A program made the translations under genes and the position numbers. Shown one piece after another: positions 8,531 through 64,000 of a stretch of DNA of 64,000 bases. The stretch comes from Streptomyces davaonensis JCM 4913 (lineage in GTDB: Bacteria > Actinomycetota > Actinomycetes > Streptomycetales > Streptomycetaceae): assembly GCF_000349325.1 (NCBI RefSeq), contig NC_020504.1:8226326-8290325 (forward strand), read 5' to 3'. Position 1 is the first letter of the stretch, and each line of letters starts with the position of its first letter. Below the pieces are notes generated by a model. It worked only from the letters and a program-made list of their open reading frames with translations, made no database searches and was not told where the DNA came from.

Positions 8531-9760
8531 TCAGAGCCGCACCACCACCAGCGCCGTGTCGTCGGTGGCGCCGCCGGGCGGCAGCAGGTCCAGCAGGACC
8601 GCGTCCGCGAGGGTCTCGGGGTCGTCGTGACAGTGCCGGACGAGGGAGTCGGCGAGCCGGGCCAGACCGGCGTAGATGTCCTCCCGTCTGCGTTCCACCA
8701 GGCCGTCGGTGTAGAGCACGAGGGTGGCGCCCTCGGTGAACTCCGTCTCCGCCTGCGGTCGTTGGACGGGATCGGGGCGGGCGTCGAGCGGCGGGTCGGT
8801 GGCCCGGTCGAGGAACTCCACCCGGCCGTCGGGGTGCAGCAGCGCGGGCGGCGGATGCCCGGCGCTGCTGTAGGCGATGGTGTGCCGGTCGAGATCGACG
8901 AATGTGGTGACCGCGGTGGCCGATTCCGCACCGTCGACGACATGCGCGTACCGGCCGAGGACGTCGAGCGCCTGGCCCGGCCCCTCGGCGACTCGTGAGG
9001 CGGCGCTCAGCGCGCTGCGCAGCTGGCCCATCACCCCGGCCGCCGCGAGGCCGTGGCCGACCACGTCCCCGACGGAGACGCCGATGCGGTTGCCGCCGAC
9101 CAGGTCGACCAGGTCGTACCAGTCCCCGCACACGTTCAGCGCGCCGACCGCGGGCCGGTAGCGCACCGCGACGGCCTGGTGGCGGACCTGGCGGCGGGCG
9201 GGCAGCATCGCCTCCTGGAGGGCGAGCGCGACCTCCCGTTCGCGGGCGTGGGCCTGCCGGAGCCGGTCGTTGAGCTCCTGGAGTTCCCGGGCCCTGGTGT
9301 ACAGCTCGGCCTCCATCACGCGGGCCCGGCTGCCGGTCGGGCCGCCGCGGGCCCGGATCAGTTCCGTGACCTCCTCGACCCGGTGGACCAGCAGGACCAC
9401 CTTGCCGTCGGGGCCGAGGACCGGGGCGTTGACCGGGCTCCAGTAGCGCTCCTCCCACTGCCCCGGCCGTTCCACGGACTCCACGTCGTAGCGCTGGAGC
9501 GCCATCACGTCCCGCTCGCCGGTGGCGACCACCCGCTGGAGGGAGGCCGCCAGATTGCGCATGCCGGTGGCGGCGGAGTCGTTGGGGTTGTCGGGGAACG
9601 CGTCGAAGAGATAGCGGCCGACGAGGTCCTCGCGGCTGCGCCCGGTCATGAGCAGGAAGTCTTCGTTGACATCCGCGTAGATCAACTCGGGTGTCAGCAG
9701 TGCCACCATGCCGGGCAGGGCCTGGAAGACTGCCCCGTAGTCGATCGCCGTGTCGCTCAT
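8531..9760 (-). CDS. PP2C/SpoIIE-type phosphatase with PAS domain
   Basis: A 409-residue protein. An N-terminal PAS-like sensor (about 5-125) is followed by a short coiled-coil stretch (about 140-185) and a PP2C/SpoIIE phosphatase domain (about 200-405) with the metal-binding CGDWYDLV and GDVVGHG boxes. Such RsbU-like proteins dephosphorylate anti-anti-sigma factors. ATG at 9760 is preferred over an upstream start because GAGGCGGG lies just before it. It is next to a second, larger phosphatase of the same class. Confidence 0.88.
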   Translation of the reverse strand: MSDTAIDYGAVFQALPGMVALLTPELIYADVNEDFLLMTGRSREDLVGRYLFDAFPDNPNDSAATGMRNLAASLQRVVATGERDVMALQRYDVESVERPGQWEERYWSPVNAPVLGPDGKVVLLVHRVEEVTELIRARGGPTGSRARVMEAELYTRARELQELNDRLRQAHAREREVALALQEAMLPARRQVRHQAVAVRYRPAVGALNVCGDWYDLVDLVGGNRIGVSVGDVVGHGLAAAGVMGQLRSALSAASRVAEGPGQALDVLGRYAHVVDGAESATAVTTFVDLDRHTIAYSSAGHPPPALLHPDGRVEFLDRATDPPLDARPDPVQRPQAETEFTEGATLVLYTDGLVERRREDIYAGLARLADSLVRHCHDDPETLADAVLLDLLPPGGATDDTALVVVRL

Positions 9761-9829
9761 GAGTCCCGCCTCATCACCGAGATCACCCCAGTTTGGCATG
9801 GCATGTGGCATATGCGCCCAAGGTGCCGA

Positions 9830-12277
9830 TCAGTCCACCGGCTCCGTGAGGGACTGCTCGGCCCAGATGATCTTGCCCTCGGGGGCGAAGCGCGTGCCCC
9901 ATCGCTGGGCGAACTGGGACACCAGCAACAGCCCCCGGCCGCCCTCGTCGGTGGCGCGCGGATGGCGCAGATGCGGGGCGGAGGCGCCGCCGTCCAGGAC
10001 CTCGCAGATCAGCGAGCGCTCCTTGATCAGCCGCAGCCGGATGGGCCCGGCCGCGTGCCGGATGGCGTTGGTGACCAGCTCGCTGACGATCAGTTCGGTG
10101 GTGAAGGCCAGCGGCTCCAGATCCCATTCGGAAAGCTGGCGGGTGGCGCCCTTGCGGGCGTCGGCGACCACGGCGGGATCGCTCGGCAGGTCCCAGTCCG
10201 CGACCTGGTCGGAGCCCAGCAGCCGGGTGCGGGCCATCAGCAGCACCACGTCGTCCTGCGGCCGCACCGGGACCAGCGCGTCCACCACGGCCCTGGCGTG
10301 CAGCGCGAGGGAGGGCGCGGTCCGTTCCAGGGCCGGGCGCAGCCGGTCCCGGTCCGCGTCCCTGGTCCCGGCGTCGCCGCGGGCCAGCAGGCCGTCGGTG
10401 TACAGGGCGAGCGTGCTGCCCTCGGCCAGCACCAGCTCGACCGCCTCGAAGGGCGGGCCGCCCACGCCGAGCGGCGGCCCCTGCGGCAGATCGACGAAGG
10501 TCACCTCGCCGTCGGGCAGCAGGACGGCGGGGGAGGGATGGCCGGCGGCGGCCATGGTGCACTGCCCGTCCACCGGGTCGTACACCGCGTACAGGCACCC
10601 CGCCCCCACGCCCCGCATGCTGTCGGCGCCCTCGGTGTCCGGCGCCACGCCCTCGTCCCGGGCCGACCTGCCGACCAGGTCGTCGAGATGGGCCAGCACC
10701 TCGTCGGGCCGCAGATCCAGCGCGGCGAGCGTCCGTACGGCCGTACGCAGGCGGCCCATGGCCGCGGCGGCGTCGATGCCGTGCCCCGGCACCTCGCCCA
10801 CCACCAGCGCGACCCGCGCCCCGGACAGCGGCACGAGGTCGTACCAGTCGCCGCCGAGGCCGGTCAGCTCGTCGGCGGGCCGGTAGCAGGAGGCGACCTC
10901 CACGGCGTCCTGGTCGCACAGCCGGTGGGGGAGCAGACTGCGCTGGAGGACCAGGGCGGCGTCCCGTTCGCGGGTGTAGCGGCGGGCGTTGTCCACGCAG
11001 ACAGCGGCCCGCGACACCAGGTCCTCGGCGAGCCGCAGATCGTCCGCGTCGAACGGCTCCTTGCGGCTGCGCCGGAAGAACGTGGTGATCCCCAGCGTGA
11101 CGCCCCGCGCGCGGACCGGCACGATCATCACGCTGTGCAGCCCCAGCTCCCGGAAGGTGGCCTCCCGGCCCAGCACGTCCACGGCCCATTCCCGGGCGAG
11201 CGGATCGAGCCGCTCGGCACGCCAGGAGCGGCCACTGGTCAGCGAGCGGATCGGCGGCGACCCCGCGAGATAGGTGGCCACGGCTCCTATGCCGACGGCC
11301 GCGTCCTCGGTTTCCGAGCGATGTCCGGCCCGGCGCAGCGCCACCGGCCCGGTCCGGCTCAGCGGCCCGGGTGCGGGTTCCCCGCCGCTGAGCACCGAGT
11401 CGAGCAGATCCACCCAGACCAGGTCGGCGAAGCCCGGCACCGCCACGTCCGCCAGCTCCTGGGCGGTGTGCACCACGTCCAGCGTGCGTCCGATGTGCCG
11501 GCCCGCGCGGTCCAGCAGGGCGAGCCGCTGTCGGGCCCGGTGCCGCTCGCTGACGTCGACGACCGTGTAGTACACGCCCATCGCCCGGCCCTGGTCGTCG
11601 TCGAGCCGGGTGAACGACATCATGTGCGCCGTCTCCCGGTACGGTGCCGAGCGCAGATGCCCGAGGTGCTCGTACCCGACGATCGGCTCCCCGGTCTCCA
11701 GCACCCGCCGCATCTGCGTCTCCAGGGCCGCCGCGTCCAGGCCCGGCTGGATGTCCGCGAGCCGCCGCCCCAGCCGCTGGTAGGGCGGTCCGCCGCCGTA
11801 CTCCTCCAGCGCGGCGTTGGACCAGACGAACCGCAGATCGGTGTCCACGATCGCTATGCCGACGGGCGAGCGGGCCGCCATCTGCTCCAGCACCGTCCGG
11901 CTCATGTCCCAGCCCGGCGCCTGCTCCATCTCCGACAGCAGCGCCAGCCAGCGCGCCGAACCGTCCTCCTCCGGCGCGGCGACGACCCGCGTCATCACCC
12001 GCACCGGGGTCCCGTCCGCGCGCCGGGCGGTCAGCAGCCCCGCCCAGCCGCCGTCCCGGCGGCACCGCTCGCCCAGCTCCGGGAGGCGCGCCGCGTCCTC
12101 GTCCGTCAGCAGCCCGGCCACCGGCCGGCCCACCACCTCGGCCGGACCATAGGCCAGCAGCCGCTGGGCCGCGTGGGTCCAGCAGGTCACCAGACCCCGG
12201 TCGTCGAGCAGCACGGGCACGGCATCGGCCACATCGAACCGATGCCGTGCTGCGGCGCGCTCCTCCTGTGTGCCCAC
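9830..12277 (-). CDS. PAS-PAS-GAF-PP2C-HATPase regulatory phosphatase
   Basis: An 815-residue multidomain regulator. Two PAS domains (about 15-115 and 135-245) and a GAF domain (about 265-430) precede a SpoIIE/PP2C phosphatase domain (about 455-660; GGDWYDLVPL, GEVPGHGID) and a C-terminal RsbW-like kinase ATPase (about 690-810; the GGRGLLLVS glycine loop is visible). One chain therefore carries both switch activities used in partner switching of sigma factors. I take GTG at 12277, preceded by GGAGAGG; a GTG at 12319 would add 14 residues. Confidence 0.87.
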   Translation of the reverse strand: MGTQEERAAARHRFDVADAVPVLLDDRGLVTCWTHAAQRLLAYGPAEVVGRPVAGLLTDEDAARLPELGERCRRDGGWAGLLTARRADGTPVRVMTRVVAAPEEDGSARWLALLSEMEQAPGWDMSRTVLEQMAARSPVGIAIVDTDLRFVWSNAALEEYGGGPPYQRLGRRLADIQPGLDAAALETQMRRVLETGEPIVGYEHLGHLRSAPYRETAHMMSFTRLDDDQGRAMGVYYTVVDVSERHRARQRLALLDRAGRHIGRTLDVVHTAQELADVAVPGFADLVWVDLLDSVLSGGEPAPGPLSRTGPVALRRAGHRSETEDAAVGIGAVATYLAGSPPIRSLTSGRSWRAERLDPLAREWAVDVLGREATFRELGLHSVMIVPVRARGVTLGITTFFRRSRKEPFDADDLRLAEDLVSRAAVCVDNARRYTRERDAALVLQRSLLPHRLCDQDAVEVASCYRPADELTGLGGDWYDLVPLSGARVALVVGEVPGHGIDAAAAMGRLRTAVRTLAALDLRPDEVLAHLDDLVGRSARDEGVAPDTEGADSMRGVGAGCLYAVYDPVDGQCTMAAAGHPSPAVLLPDGEVTFVDLPQGPPLGVGGPPFEAVELVLAEGSTLALYTDGLLARGDAGTRDADRDRLRPALERTAPSLALHARAVVDALVPVRPQDDVVLLMARTRLLGSDQVADWDLPSDPAVVADARKGATRQLSEWDLEPLAFTTELIVSELVTNAIRHAAGPIRLRLIKERSLICEVLDGGASAPHLRHPRATDEGGRGLLLVSQFAQRWGTRFAPEGKIIWAEQSLTEPVD

Positions 12278-12400
12278 GGCCGACCTCTCCGTCGCTGAGA
12301 GTCGCTGAGAGTGGTCCACGTCAGTGGTCTACCACCTCTGATCCCAGTGTTCACCCTCGCAGTGCGAAGGAGAGACGGCCACTGCGGGCACTCTCCTCGC

Positions 12401-13618
12401 CTACTTCAGTACCTTCTCCAGCGCGGCCAGCGCACCCGCCAGCTCCTCGGCGGTGATCGTCAGCGGCGGAGCCAGCCGGATCGTGGAGCCGTGCGTGTCC
12501 TTGACCAGCACGCCCTCCCGCATCAGCCGCTCACTGATCTCCCGGCCGGTGCCCACCGAGGGGTCGATGTCCACGCCCGCCCACAGGCCGCGGGCGCGGA
12601 AGCCGACCACGCCCTTGCCGACGAGTTCGGTCAGCCCGTCCCTCAGGCCGACGCCGAGGTCGGCCGCCCGGCGCTGGAACTCGCCGGTCTCCAGCAGCTC
12701 CACCACCGCGGTGCCGACGGCGGCGGCCAGCGGGTTGCCGCCGAACGTGGAGCCGTGCTCGCCGGGCCGCAGCACCCCGAGCACCTCGCGCTTGGCCACC
12801 ACGGCGGACACCGGGACGATGCCGCCGCCCAGCGCCTTGCCGAGCAGCAGCATGTCGGGCACGACCGCCTCGTGCTCGACGGCGAGGGTACGGCCGGTGC
12901 GGCCGAGGCCCGACTGGATCTCGTCCGCGATGAACAGACAGCCCTTGCGGCTGGTCAGCTCCCGCACTCCGGCCAGATAGCCGTCGTCGGGGATGACCAC
13001 GCCCGCCTCGCCCTGGATCGGCTCGATGAGGACCGCCGCCGTGGTGTCGTCGACGGCCTCCTCCAGCGCGGCCAGGTCGTTGTAGGGGACGACCCGGAAG
13101 CCCGGGGTGAAGGGTCCGAAGCCGGAGCGGGCGGTCTCGTCGGTGGAGAAGCTGACGATGGTCGTCGTACGGCCGTGGAAGTTGTCCGCCGCGACCACGA
13201 TGGTGGCCTGGCCGTCCGGGACACCCTTGACCTCGTACGCCCACTTGCGGGCCACCTTGACCGCGCTCTCCACGGCCTCGGCGCCGGTGTTCATGGGCAG
13301 CACCATGTCCAGGCCGGTCAGCGCGGCCAGGCGCTCGGCGAACTCGGCGAGCTTGTCGTTGTGGAACGCCCGCGAGGTGAGCGTGAGCAGATCCAGCTGC
13401 CGGTGGGCGGCCTCGATCAGCCCGGGGTGGCGGTGGCCGAAGTTGAGCGCCGAGTAGCCCGCCAGCATGTCCAGGTAGCGGTTGCCCTCGACGTCCTCCA
13501 CCCAGGTGCCCTCGGCGCGCGCGACGACGACCGGCAGCGGGTGGTAGTTGTGCGCGAGGACGGGCTCCTCGGCGCGGATCAGGTCGGCGGAGGAACGGGT
13601 GTGCGCGGGTGCGGTCAT
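12401..13618 (-). CDS. rocD: ornithine aminotransferase
   Basis: A 405-residue PLP-dependent class III aminotransferase converting ornithine and 2-oxoglutarate to glutamate semialdehyde and glutamate. Diagnostic segments are LDMLAGYSALNFGHRHP, MNTGAEAVESAVKVARKW, FIADEIQSGLGRTG and the PLP-lysine region LLGKALGGG. ATG at 13618 overlaps the ddaH stop by 4 bases (ATGA), so the two genes are coupled. The context is arginine-derivative catabolism. Confidence 0.94.
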   Translation of the reverse strand: MTAPAHTRSSADLIRAEEPVLAHNYHPLPVVVARAEGTWVEDVEGNRYLDMLAGYSALNFGHRHPGLIEAAHRQLDLLTLTSRAFHNDKLAEFAERLAALTGLDMVLPMNTGAEAVESAVKVARKWAYEVKGVPDGQATIVVAADNFHGRTTTIVSFSTDETARSGFGPFTPGFRVVPYNDLAALEEAVDDTTAAVLIEPIQGEAGVVIPDDGYLAGVRELTSRKGCLFIADEIQSGLGRTGRTLAVEHEAVVPDMLLLGKALGGGIVPVSAVVAKREVLGVLRPGEHGSTFGGNPLAAAVGTAVVELLETGEFQRRAADLGVGLRDGLTELVGKGVVGFRARGLWAGVDIDPSVGTGREISERLMREGVLVKDTHGSTIRLAPPLTITAEELAGALAALEKVLK

Positions 13619-52874: not shown

Positions 52875-57453
<4,579 letters not shown>

Positions 57454-57466
57454 GGAGCGACTGACC

Positions 57467-58444
57467 ATGGCAAGGCAAGCAAGACAGTGGCGAGTCGGCG
57501 CGGCCGGCATAGCGGTCCTCGGCCTCACCCTCACCGCCTGCGGTGGTGCGAAGGTCGGTGACAGCTCCTCGGACGCCGGTGGTTCCGGCAGTTCCGGCAA
57601 GTGCGGCACCTTCAACATCGCGGTCAACCCGTGGGTGGGCTACGAGGCCAACGCGGCGGTCATCGCGCACGTCGCGGAGAACGACCTCGGCTGCAAGGTC
57701 ACCAAGAAGGACCTGAAGGAGGAGATCGCCTGGCAGGGCTTCGGCACCGGTGAGGTCGACGCCGTCGTGGAGAACTGGGGCCACGACGACCTGAAGAAGA
57801 AGTACATCACCGACCAGAAGACCGCCGTCGACGCCGGAGCCACCGGCAACGAAGGCCTCATCGGCTGGTACGTGCCGCCGTGGCTGGCCAAGGAGCACCC
57901 GGACATCCTCGACTGGAACAACCTCGACAAGTACGCGGCCGAGTTCAAGACCTCCGAGTCCGGAGGCAAGGGCCAACTCCTCGACGGCGACCCGTCGTTC
58001 GTCACCAACGACGAGTCGCTGGTGAAGAACCTGAAGCTGGACTACAAGGTCGTGTACGCGGGCAGCGAGACCGCGCTCATCCAGGCCTTCCGCAAGGCGG
58101 AGAAGGACAAGGAATGGGTGATCGGCTACTTCTACGAGCCGCAGTGGTTCATGTCCGAGGTGCCGCTGGAGAAGATCAAGCTGCCCGAGTACAAGGAGGG
58201 CTGCGACGCCGACCCGGAGAAGATCAGCTGCGACTACCCGGTGTACAAGCTGGACAAGATCGTCAGCGCGAAGTTCGCCAAGTCCGGCAGCCCGGCCTAT
58301 GACCTGGTGAAGAACTTCACCTGGACCAACGACGACCAGAACGTCGTGGCGAAGTACATCGCGGTGGACAAGATGACGCCCGAGGCCGCGGCGGAGAAGT
58401 GGGTCGAGGCCAACCGCGACAAGGTGGAGGCCTGGATCAAGTAA
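57467..58444 (+). CDS. betaine-type ABC transporter substrate-binding lipoprotein
   Basis: A 325-residue lipoprotein of the OpuAC/ProX type. Signal peptide with lipobox LTAC (Cys about 25). Aromatic residues able to cradle a quaternary amine are seen in NPWVGY, NWGHDD, GWYVPPWL and EPQWF. AAGGAG precedes the ATG at 57467. It ends the betB-transporter operon, followed by a strong terminator. Confidence 0.92.
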   Translation: MARQARQWRVGAAGIAVLGLTLTACGGAKVGDSSSDAGGSGSSGKCGTFNIAVNPWVGYEANAAVIAHVAENDLGCKVTKKDLKEEIAWQGFGTGEVDAVVENWGHDDLKKKYITDQKTAVDAGATGNEGLIGWYVPPWLAKEHPDILDWNNLDKYAAEFKTSESGGKGQLLDGDPSFVTNDESLVKNLKLDYKVVYAGSETALIQAFRKAEKDKEWVIGYFYEPQWFMSEVPLEKIKLPEYKEGCDADPEKISCDYPVYKLDKIVSAKFAKSGSPAYDLVKNFTWTNDDQNVVAKYIAVDKMTPEAAAEKWVEANRDKVEAWIK

Positions 58445-58454
58445 CCCCCTCTTC

Positions 58455-58502
58455 GATGCCCGGTGGGCGGTGCGCAGGGACACGCACCGCCCACCGGGCA
58501 TC
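58455..58502 (+). terminator. long-stem terminator
   Basis: A perfect 20-bp stem (58455-58474 with 58483-58502) and an 8-base loop, then CCTGTTTT, ends the transporter operon before the demethylation operon. Confidence 0.85.
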
Positions 58503-58571
58503 CCTGTTTTCCGGGCCGTTCTCCGACGTCAGCGCACCTCTTGACACCCACCTGGACGGCAGGCACATTGA

Positions 58572-61064
<2,493 letters not shown>

Positions 61065-61077
61065 CCGGGGGAAGCCG

Positions 61078-61938
61078 ATGACCGCGCAGACACTCGACGG
61101 CAGGGCGACCGCCGCCGCGATACGCCGCGAACTCGCCGAGCGCGTGGCCAAGTCGACCGCCACCACCGGCCGCCCACCGGGCCTCGGCACCGTGCTGGTC
61201 GGCGACGACCCGGGCAGCCACGCCTACGTCGCCGGCAAGCACCGCGACTGTGCCCAGGTGGGCATCGCCTCCATCCGCCGGGACCTGCCCGCCGACGCCT
61301 CCCAGCGCCAGGTCGAGGACACGATCGACGAGCTGAACGCCGACCCGGACTGCACCGGCTACATCGTCCAACTCCCGCTCCCGCACCACCTGGACGCGGG
61401 CGCCGTACTCGAACGCATGGACCCGGCCAAGGACGCCGACGGACTGCACCCCGTCAACCTCGGCCGCCTCACCCTGGGCGTCGATGCTCCACTGCCGTGC
61501 ACCCCGCGCGGCATCGTCGAACTGCTCCGCCGCCACGACGTACCCCTCGCCGGAGCACGCGTCTGCGTGATCGGCCGGGGCGTCACCGTGGGCCGCCCGC
61601 TCGGCCTCCTCCTCACCCGCCGCTCCGAGAACTCCACCGTCACCTTGTGCCACACCGGCACCAAGGGCCTGGCCTGGCATGTACGCGAGGCCGACATCGT
61701 GGTGGCCGCCGCCGGCTCGCCCGGACTGATCACCAAGGACATGCTCCGCCCCGGCGCGGCCGTCCTGGACGTCGGCATCACCCGCACCGACGACGGCCTG
61801 GTCGGCGACGTCCACCCGGACGCCGCTCAGGTCGCCGGATGGCTCGCGCCCATGCCCGGCGGCGTGGGCCCCATGACCCGGGCGATGCTGCTGGCCAACG
61901 TCGTCGAGGCCGCCGAGAGGAACGCGAACACCGTATGA
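61078..61938 (+). CDS. folD: methylenetetrahydrofolate dehydrogenase/cyclohydrolase
   Basis: A 286-residue bifunctional enzyme oxidising methylene-tetrahydrofolate to 10-formyl-tetrahydrofolate. The catalytic Lys lies in YVAGKHRDC (about residue 55), and the folate/NADP blocks [33 protein letters not shown] and [10 protein letters not shown] are intact. It would process the one-carbon units made by the neighbouring demethylase. ATG at 61078; a GTG at 61057 inside the previous gene is possible. Confidence 0.93.
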
Positions 61939-61969: not shown

Positions 61970-63202
61970 ATGAGCCCCCGCACCCCCGGCGCCGACCTCC
62001 CCGACCACCCCGACTTCCTGTGGCGTACCCCCGACCCGAAGCGGTCGTACGACGTGGTGATCGTCGGCGGCGGCGGACACGGCCTCGCCACCGCGCACTA
62101 CCTCGCCAGGAACCACGGCATCACCAATGTCGCGGTGCTGGAGAAGGGCTGGCTCGCGGGCGGCAACATGGCCCGCAACACCACGATCATCCGCTCCAAC
62201 TACCTGTGGGACGAGAGCGCAGGCATCTACGAGCACGCGCTCAAGCTCTGGGAGGGCCTGGCCGAGGAGCTGGACTACCCGATCCTCTTCTCCCAGCGAG
62301 GCGTGCTGAACCTCGCCCACAGCCTCCAGGACGTCCGCGACAGTGTGCGCCGAGTGGAGGCGAACCGCCTCAACGGCGTGGACGCGGAGTGGCTCGACGC
62401 GGAGGGCGTGCGCGAGGTCTGCCCGATCGTCAACATCTCCCCGGACGTGCGCTACCCGGTCCTGGGCGCCACGTACCAGCCCCGCGCCGGTATCGCCAAG
62501 CACGACTACGTGGCCTGGGGCCTGGCCCGCTCGGCGGACGCGGCGGGCATCGACATCATCCAGAACTGCGAGGTCACGGGCCTGGACGTGGTCGCCGGCC
62601 GAGTGACCGGAGTCCGGACGAATCTGGGCCCGATCGCGGCGGGCAAGGTGGCCCTGTGCTCGGCGGGCCACACCTCGGTCCTGGCGGCCATGGCCGGCAT
62701 CGAACTCCCCCTCCAGAGCCACCCGTTGCAGGCCCTGGTCTCGGAGCTGCTGGAACCGGTCCACCCGACGGTCGTCATGTCCAACGCGGTCCATGTGTAC
62801 GTCAGCCAGGCCCACAAGGGCGAGTTGGTGATGGGCGCCGGCATCGACGCGTACAACTCCTACACCCAGCGCGGCGCCTTCCACATCATCGAGGAGCAGA
62901 TGTCGGCGGCCCTGGAGCTGTTCCCGGTCTTCGCCCGCGCCCACGTCCTGCGCACCTGGGGCGGCATCGTCGACGTCAGCCCCGACGCCTCACCGATCAT
63001 CGGCCTCACCCCGGTGGACAACCTCTACCTCAACTGCGGCTGGGGAACGGGCGGTTTCAAGGCCACGCCGGGCGTCGGCTGGGTCTACGCCGACACGATC
63101 GCCAACGACACCCCGCACGCCCTCAACGCTCCCTTCTCGCTCGACCGTTTCACCACCGGCGCGCTCGTCGACGAGCACGGCGCGGCTGCGGTGGCCCACT
63201 AG
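61970..63202 (+). CDS. soxB: sarcosine oxidase subunit beta
   Basis: A 410-residue FAD/FMN subunit oxidising sarcosine. FAD loop [14 protein letters not shown]. His178 in [14 protein letters not shown] corresponds to the covalent flavin-linking His of corynebacterial SoxB. The C-terminal block [18 protein letters not shown] is typical. It starts 32 bp after folD and is followed 19 bp later by the SoxD-SoxA frame. Confidence 0.94.
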
Positions 63203-63221: not shown

Positions 63222-64000
63222 ATGCTGCTCATCCCCTGCCCGTGGTGCGGGCCCCGCGACGAGGCCGAGTTCCACTACGGCGGCCAGGCACACGTTCCGT
63301 ACCCGGAGGACCCCGCATCCCTCACCGACGAGGACTGGTCCCGCTACCTCTTCTTCCGAGCCAACCCCAAGGGCCCCTTCGCCGAGCGCTGGACCCACAC
63401 AGCAGGCTGCCGCCGCTGGTTCAACGCGCTACGAGACACCTCGACGAACGAGATCCTGACGGTGTACAGGACAGGGGAGGAACGCCCACCGACACCAGAA
63501 CCGAGGCCGGTATTTCCAGCCCGTCCGGCGTTCGAGGACGAGGCCCCTTCAGGGCCGACGGGGGTCCAGGGGGCGGAGCCCCTTCAGGATGGGACGGGTA
63601 GGGGCGGCGGGGGCGAGACTCAGCCGTTCCGCCACGCGACCCGCGGCCGCATCGACCGCGACACCCCCCTCACCTTCACCTTCGACGGCACCGAGTACCA
63701 GGGCTACCGCGGCGACACCCTCGCCTCCGCACTGCTGGCGAACGGCGTCATCCAGACCGGCACCAGCATCAAACTCGGCCGCCCCCGAGGCATCTTCTCC
63801 GCAGGCGTCGAAGAACCCAACGCGGTCATCCAGATCGAGGAACCCTTCCCCGAGCCGATGCTGCCCGCAACGACCGTCGAGCTGTACGACGGCCTCGTGG
63901 CCACCAGCCTCTCCGGCCAGGGCCGCCTCGCCACCACCCCCGACCCCGCCCGCTACGACGCCGCACACGCCCACTGCGACCTGCTGATCGTCGGCGCAGG
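63222..64000 (+). CDS. in-frame SoxD-SoxA fusion (partial, runs off the window)
   Basis: One uninterrupted frame of 259 visible codons. Residues 1-95 are SoxD: zinc ligands Cys6, Cys9, His59 and Cys63 sit at the numbers known for that subunit, followed by WFNALRDTS. Residues about 97-133 form a Gly/Pro-rich linker. From about 134 it is SoxA: RIDRDTPLTFTFDGTEYQG, DTLASALLANGV and, at the edge, the dinucleotide start DLLIVGAG. No ATG, GTG or TTG occurs in frame between GTG 63462 (in SoxD) and ATG 63861 (inside SoxA), so SoxA cannot be started separately. Confidence 0.85.
   Translation, partial: MLLIPCPWCGPRDEAEFHYGGQAHVPYPEDPASLTDEDWSRYLFFRANPKGPFAERWTHTAGCRRWFNALRDTSTNEILTVYRTGEERPPTPEPRPVFPARPAFEDEAPSGPTGVQGAEPLQDGTGRGGGGETQPFRHATRGRIDRDTPLTFTFDGTEYQGYRGDTLASALLANGVIQTGTSIKLGRPRGIFSAGVEEPNAVIQIEEPFPEPMLPATTVELYDGLVATSLSGQGRLATTPDPARYDAAHAHCDLLIVGA
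63511..63620. repeat. dispersed Streptomyces-type intergenic repeat inside soxDA
   Basis: About 110 bp matching a GC-rich repeat I recognise from Streptomyces intergenic regions (CCAGCCCGTCCGGCGTT, GGGGTCCAGGGGGCGGAGCC, ACGGGTAGGGGCGGCGGGGG). Internal hairpins are GGCCC-CTTCA-GGGCC at 63542-63556 and GGGGC-GGA-GCCCC at 63570-63582. Here it is translated as the linker joining SoxD to SoxA. Edges are approximate. Confidence 0.55.

Follow-up and report, generated by a model that had tools for sequence, protein, structure and literature searches.

In Streptomyces davaonensis JCM 4913, the delta and alpha subunits of heterotetrameric sarcosine oxidase (SoxD and SoxA) are encoded by one uninterrupted reading frame, here called soxDA, in which both parts are joined by a copy of a dispersed repeat that elsewhere in the genome lies mostly between genes. 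Many related loci share this arrangement, and sequence comparison suggests that soxD and soxA probably once had an overlapping stop and start, that the repeat took its place in a single event, and that the linker diversified later.

Organisation of the sarcosine oxidase locus

The analysed window covers 64,000 nucleotides (contig NC_020504.1, positions 8,226,326 to 8,290,325), and all features of the locus described here lie on its plus strand. The beta-subunit gene soxB (61970..63202, 410 aa) is recognised by TIGR01373 with 632.8 bits against a cut-off of 529.45 and is followed, after a spacer of 19 bases, by the ATG of soxDA at position 63222. From there, the frame stays open past the end of the window and comprises 1072 codons before its stop (9548-12766 in the extended locus L009). 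This stop shares an eight-base overlap with a candidate ATG for the following gene, which, from its position, we take to be soxG. Further upstream (57269-61938), the genes resemble, by eye, those for the binding protein of a glycine betaine transporter, for a protein similar to dimethylglycine oxidase and for FolD; such a set would suit a breakdown of betaine to glycine.

The sequence-only reading had described the frame as a SoxD running without a stop into SoxA, and profile searches agree, i.e., the domain sets of both subunits score above their cut-offs. The SoxD part (63222..63485, residues 1-88) matches PF04267 at residues 3-83 (122.4 bits, cut-off 27) as well as TIGR01374 (122.1 bits, curated cut-off 116.5), and the chains 1vrq_D and 2gag_D align with residues ~1-90 of the fusion. 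Its residues C6, C9, H59 and C63, which we take to be the zinc ligands, are invariant in an alignment of 24 sequences. The SoxA part starts at residue 135 (63624..64000, on past the window to position 12766 of L009, genome C1 8292765). It passes the curated TIGR01372 cut-off of 1164 with 1278.2 bits, aligns with 2gag_A over residues 138-1072 and shows the Pfam domains Fer2_4 (148-230), Pyr_redox_2 (253-512), SO_alpha_A3 (591-673), GCV_T (688-953) and GCV_T_C (978-1064). AlphaFold, run on 24 sequences, gave a mean pLDDT of 40.9, which is too low for the model to be used.

With regard to the known SoxBDAG enzymes (2gag, 1vrq), the SoxD and SoxA domains and the soxB gene just upstream are the same. 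In the solved enzymes, however, D and A are separate chains, and they are separate genes in 36 relatives, whereas S. davaonensis has one frame with a linker of 46 residues. That is, judged from the genes, the four separate chains of a heterotetrameric sarcosine oxidase are not encoded here, since delta and alpha share one frame.

The linker (residues 89-134, 63486..63623) contains neither an in-frame stop nor an in-frame ATG, GTG or TTG. The earlier claim that SoxA has no start codon of its own holds for the whole stretch between codon 81, i.e., the GTG at 63462 encoding V81 of SoxD, and codon 213 (ATG, 63858). Frame +1 of the junction is likewise stop-free and frame +2 contains a single TAG, such that the openness of the frame in one genome alone is weak evidence and the rest of the support comes from the comparison with relatives. 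The codon score of the linker is -0.36, compared to 0.29 for SoxD and 0.52 for SoxA, i.e., the linker is unlike normal coding DNA. Such a non-coding-like codon usage is expected for a recruited repeat, yet it lends no support to translation.

The dispersed repeat

The repeat inside the soxDA frame has its core at 63516..63618 (RPAFEDEAPSGPTGVQGAEPLQDGTGRGGGGE), which is slightly shorter than the 63511-63620 proposed from the sequence alone. A genome search with this core yields 46 matches at E<=1e-6, where the best other copy is 92% identical, and the wider query 63490-63640 yields 58 matches at E<=0.001; both counts include the soxDA copy itself and some pieces of single places. The proposal that the junction belongs to a common repeat is thus confirmed.

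Copies of the repeat are ~105-130 bp long, stand mostly between genes and in some cases form inverted pairs. For 26 copies, a simple codon model was used to predict the neighbouring genes. In 21 of these, repeat and 5' gene share one orientation (11 copies with convergent and 10 with tandem neighbours), i.e., the usual place of the repeat is just 3' of a gene. The soxDA copy likewise stands just 3' relative to soxD. Among the other five, two copies stand between genes that both run against the repeat, one stands between divergent genes, one lacks a predicted gene on one side and one (L103, see below) is intragenic.

In the majority consensus of 15 other copies, a single sense frame is free of stops, namely the one in which the soxDA copy begins to be read. 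Considering the copies one by one, this soxDA-type frame is open in 7/15 and another one in 8/15; one copy has none, i.e., 14/15 provide at least one stop-free sense frame. With regard to a palindromic structure, folding of the consensus RNA gave a z-score of -1.05, with 29 of 200 shuffles being as good.

Repeat copies within other proteins

In-frame copies of the repeat occur in a few unrelated proteins of Streptomyces. Protein searches based on the linker led to 3 proteins from 14 candidates and to 9 from 88 candidates (the latter with a length range of 344/1.75-0.55; length and word limits apply to both searches), of which 7/9 are not sarcosine oxidase. One intragenic copy lies on the minus strand of the genome in a Trypsin_2-type protein with an open frame of more than 1043 aa (L103, genome C1 3091377-3094505), where it is in frame at about residue 503. 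Further similar PAFEAEP segments adjoin this copy, and the homologues L211-L213 come without most of the stretch. Among database proteins of Streptomyces, the repeat is found mid-protein in the PLP decarboxylases P0123 and P0126 and in the acyl-CoA dehydrogenase P0122. In the TPR proteins P0127-P0130, it forms part of the N-terminal tail, with its first part in another frame (P0129 being taken from its table row only).

Residues 141-182 of P0123 are absent from the S. davaonensis homologue, whose matched parts abut (C1 7239081-7239491 and 7239489-7240436). The loop that holds the repeat in this PLP decarboxylase also varies in relatives without the repeat.

At L119 (386-2332, minus strand; genome C1 7200160-7200286), the repeat stands in an open frame ahead of an ADP_ribosyl_GH domain. 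We did not include it among the translated copies, since a simple gene caller puts the start, whose position is uncertain, after the repeat.

Distribution of the fusion

The SoxD query matched in 120 of the 392 genomes of the genus Streptomyces. Among the SoxD loci with at least 83% identity, 64/68 are fused, where the total counts G106, which was matched in pieces. Of the remaining four, two are truncated where their contigs stop (G261, G099), G106 is a draft genome with a frameshift and G331 has separate genes. The fusion is thus no peculiarity of one strain, and its presence in 64/68 close loci implies that it is not a recent event. For a less similar SoxD type, all 20 loci taken have separate genes. 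One more locus of this type (L078 in G279) was considered as fused and dropped from the fused set, since masked bases at the junction hide the frame and an ATGA is present.

PF04267 was searched for at the level of the order (293 genomes) and of the phylum (346 genomes). Apart from Streptomyces, a single genome, which falls outside the order (G628), showed open frames of more than 1000 codons with this domain. The order-wide search added L159 and L160 to the 64 loci, resulting in the n=66 fused loci used in the following. The locus from G628 (L155), with SoxD-like and SoxA-like parts in one open frame and a GC-rich linker, was considered as a second independent fusion. Given four in-frame starts before SoxA and identities of 44% and 35%, it stays a candidate and was left out of the 66; the repeat HMM described below found no repeat in its linker.

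A triple SoxB-SoxD-SoxA fusion was also considered, because many open frames reach ~1500 codons, and was dropped. Among the loci worked through, the frame of SoxB differs from that of SoxD in L015, L020, L022 and L028; in L036 both frames agree and the open frame has only 1061 codons, i.e., a stop lies between them.

In the protein database, 577 entries match residues 1-140, and the 120 listed have the length of a fusion, with the exception of one entry marked as partial. These are mostly named as alpha or delta subunit; other names are family protein or 'ferredoxin', or the name is missing. Among the open-licence literature matches listed, neither a fusion of SoxD with SoxA nor the repeat described here was the subject of any paper.

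Origin of the fusion

In all 36 separate soxD/soxA pairs, the start of soxA overlaps the stop of soxD, with soxA in another frame. Comparison with relatives, as had been suggested, places the overlap at four bases in 34/36 pairs and at one base in the other two (L093, L149). The ATGA start of these relatives is absent from the S. davaonensis locus, and SoxA, as we read the sequences, begins again in many of the fused loci at roughly those residues that come after the old start (T-x-P-F-R).

In a FastTree phylogeny of SoxB, SoxD and SoxA-N from 101 loci, the fused loci form one group (0.981), which has the separate loci L072 and L143 as its neighbours (0.992). IQ-TREE, applied to 45 of the 101, gave a support of 68 for the fused clade and of 99 for the fused clade plus its sister, with a different order inside the clade. 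L077 was left out of both trees.

With regard to the repeat itself, 23 of 30 chosen genomes contain matches. Of the seven without a match, four belong to other genera, one is G117, whose locus is fused, and two are the sister genomes G331 and G469, which hold the separate loci next to the fused clade. Many copies can be present where all SoxD loci are of the separate type, i.e., the repeat alone does not bring about the fusion. At the level of the linkers, a repeat HMM built from 15 copies of the S. davaonensis genome, without the soxDA copy, matches 54/66 fused linkers and finds no repeat in 12/66 (L018 and L032 at contig ends and L099 without SoxB were skipped in this test).

Overlapping pairs, sister genomes without a repeat match and repeat-matching linkers together make a single replacement by the repeat probable. 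The overlap in relatives, the fused frame, its spread and the identity of the repeat are observed, and the direction and the cause of the event are inferred. The sequence-only reading had already proposed that an inserted or expanded repeat may have removed the soxD stop and the soxA start. Its direction is backed by the 36/36 overlapping pairs and by the sister genomes G331 and G469 without any match, while its cause is open to a rival history.

In this rival history, the fusion came first, i.e., the soxD stop was lost along with a slight change of frame. The tolerant linker would have been colonised by the repeat only later, perhaps several times. The product would be the same, and we give this course of events a real but less than even chance. 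It would account for the 12/66 fused linkers without a detectable repeat and for the fused genome G117 without any match. On the other hand, the repeat-less fused loci are found mostly among the repeat-bearing ones in the FastTree phylogeny, the repeat-less L159 from the first-branching pair is paired with the repeat-bearing L160, and neither of the two separate sister genomes gave a repeat match. The sister loci L012 and L013 agree in 97.4% of their SoxA-N parts but differ in the repeat variant that occupies the linker, which fits a later arrival of the repeat as well. The variant of L012 is identical to the genome consensus at 97/101 positions, which suggests that the linker copy was replaced by another genomic copy. 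Thus, copies at the soxDA junction can be replaced, and the founding copy is not necessarily the ancestor of the repeat present today. Late colonisation is further in line with the PLP decarboxylase, where the repeat sits in a loop that is variable also in repeat-less relatives, and a single origin is weakened by the IQ-TREE support of only 68 compared to 0.981 from FastTree. On balance, we lean towards the insertion of the repeat as the cause of the SoxD-SoxA fusion.

Translation of the linker

That the anatomy is as read above and that soxDA yields a fused SoxD-SoxA translation product is held with high confidence. Zero in-frame stops across the 66 linkers follow from the definition of a fused locus; in the two other frames, stops are present in 14/66 and 49/66 linkers. 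Linker length takes 33 different values among the 61 loci bounded by the SoxA motif. The dN/dS ratio (20 pairs) is 0.51 for the linker, compared to 0.13 for SoxD and 0.215 for the N-terminal part of SoxA, where the linker value is biased downward because the pairs stem from the 40/66 loci with linkers alignable at >=60% identity.

With its richness in G, P, A, E and S and a rate of change above that of the domains, the linker behaves as expected of an exposed tether. Such a tether could also be cut in the cell, which would turn the fused product into four subunits again. Reading the linkers by eye revealed no common cleavage motif, and we regard cleavage as unlikely.

Still less probable is that, despite the open frame, an unusual or internal start gives rise to a separate SoxA such that no fused protein exists. 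At least one in-frame GTG, ATG or TTG precedes the SoxA motif in 36/61 loci, and V81 is encoded by GTG in S. davaonensis. The codons before the motif could act as internal starts in the 36 loci. They stand, however, at scattered positions, 25/61 loci including S. davaonensis have none between codon 89 and the motif, and the ATGA used by the separate relatives is missing here. The motif-bounded counts refer to 61/66 loci since five lack the motif as written; under rougher bounds, 27/66 linkers are free of start codons. Linker ends were rough in L015, L017 and L036, where the SoxA match began late, and the recount used the motif as the end. As the fused loci are related, none of these counts represents independent trials.

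Finally, an assembly or annotation artefact, for which the frameshift in the draft genome G106 could be cited, is practically negligible given the fusion in 66 loci, many of them from genomes of one or few contigs.

Discussion

A close parallel is provided by the Rickettsia palindromic elements (RPE), which PMC10969869 describes as dispersed repeats of ~150 bp that stand in frame inside unrelated protein genes; RPE are mentioned further in PMC2635572. The Streptomyces repeat resembles RPE in this behaviour. RPE-like traits observed for it are dispersed copies, in-frame copies in unrelated genes, an empty counterpart site and a stop-free frame. Compared to RPE as described there, it differs in its length of ~105-130 bp, in its mostly intergenic position and in that one copy joins two subunits. 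It resembles REP/BIME and MITE-type repeats in its many intergenic copies, some of them in inverted pairs. REPs, however, are given as 20-40 bp in PMC3733652, and the S. davaonensis repeat is longer.

The course of events that we favour, i.e., fusion by insertion of the repeat, would start from an ancestral ATGA overlap of soxD stop and soxA start, which would have coupled the translation of both genes. A repeat of the kind usually found 3' of genes would then have landed at the soxD/soxA junction and replaced stop and start, such that soxD and soxA came to lie in one frame. The fusion would have been inherited from then on, with the linker free to vary in length and sequence while the frame stayed open, and the repeat-derived linker may serve as a flexible tether. 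The product is likely a three-chain enzyme (SoxB, SoxDA, SoxG) that performs the ordinary sarcosine oxidase reaction. In it, the tether may take over from translational coupling in ensuring that delta and alpha are supplied in equal amounts and assemble with each other.

More generally, the data favour, by a modest degree, the view that a common intergenic repeat of Streptomyces, most copies of which have a stop-free sense frame, is a recurring source of in-frame linkers. It would have fused SoxD and SoxA once and entered loops and tails of several unrelated proteins, i.e., an RPE-like process in a free-living actinomycete. Automatic annotation pipelines label such fusions as alpha only or delta only. 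The soxDA locus would represent a clade-wide and lasting case in which a normally intergenic repeat is read as protein and joins two subunits into one chain. Since the state before, the state after and many linkers can be compared, both the origin of a gene fusion and the requirements on its linker become testable.
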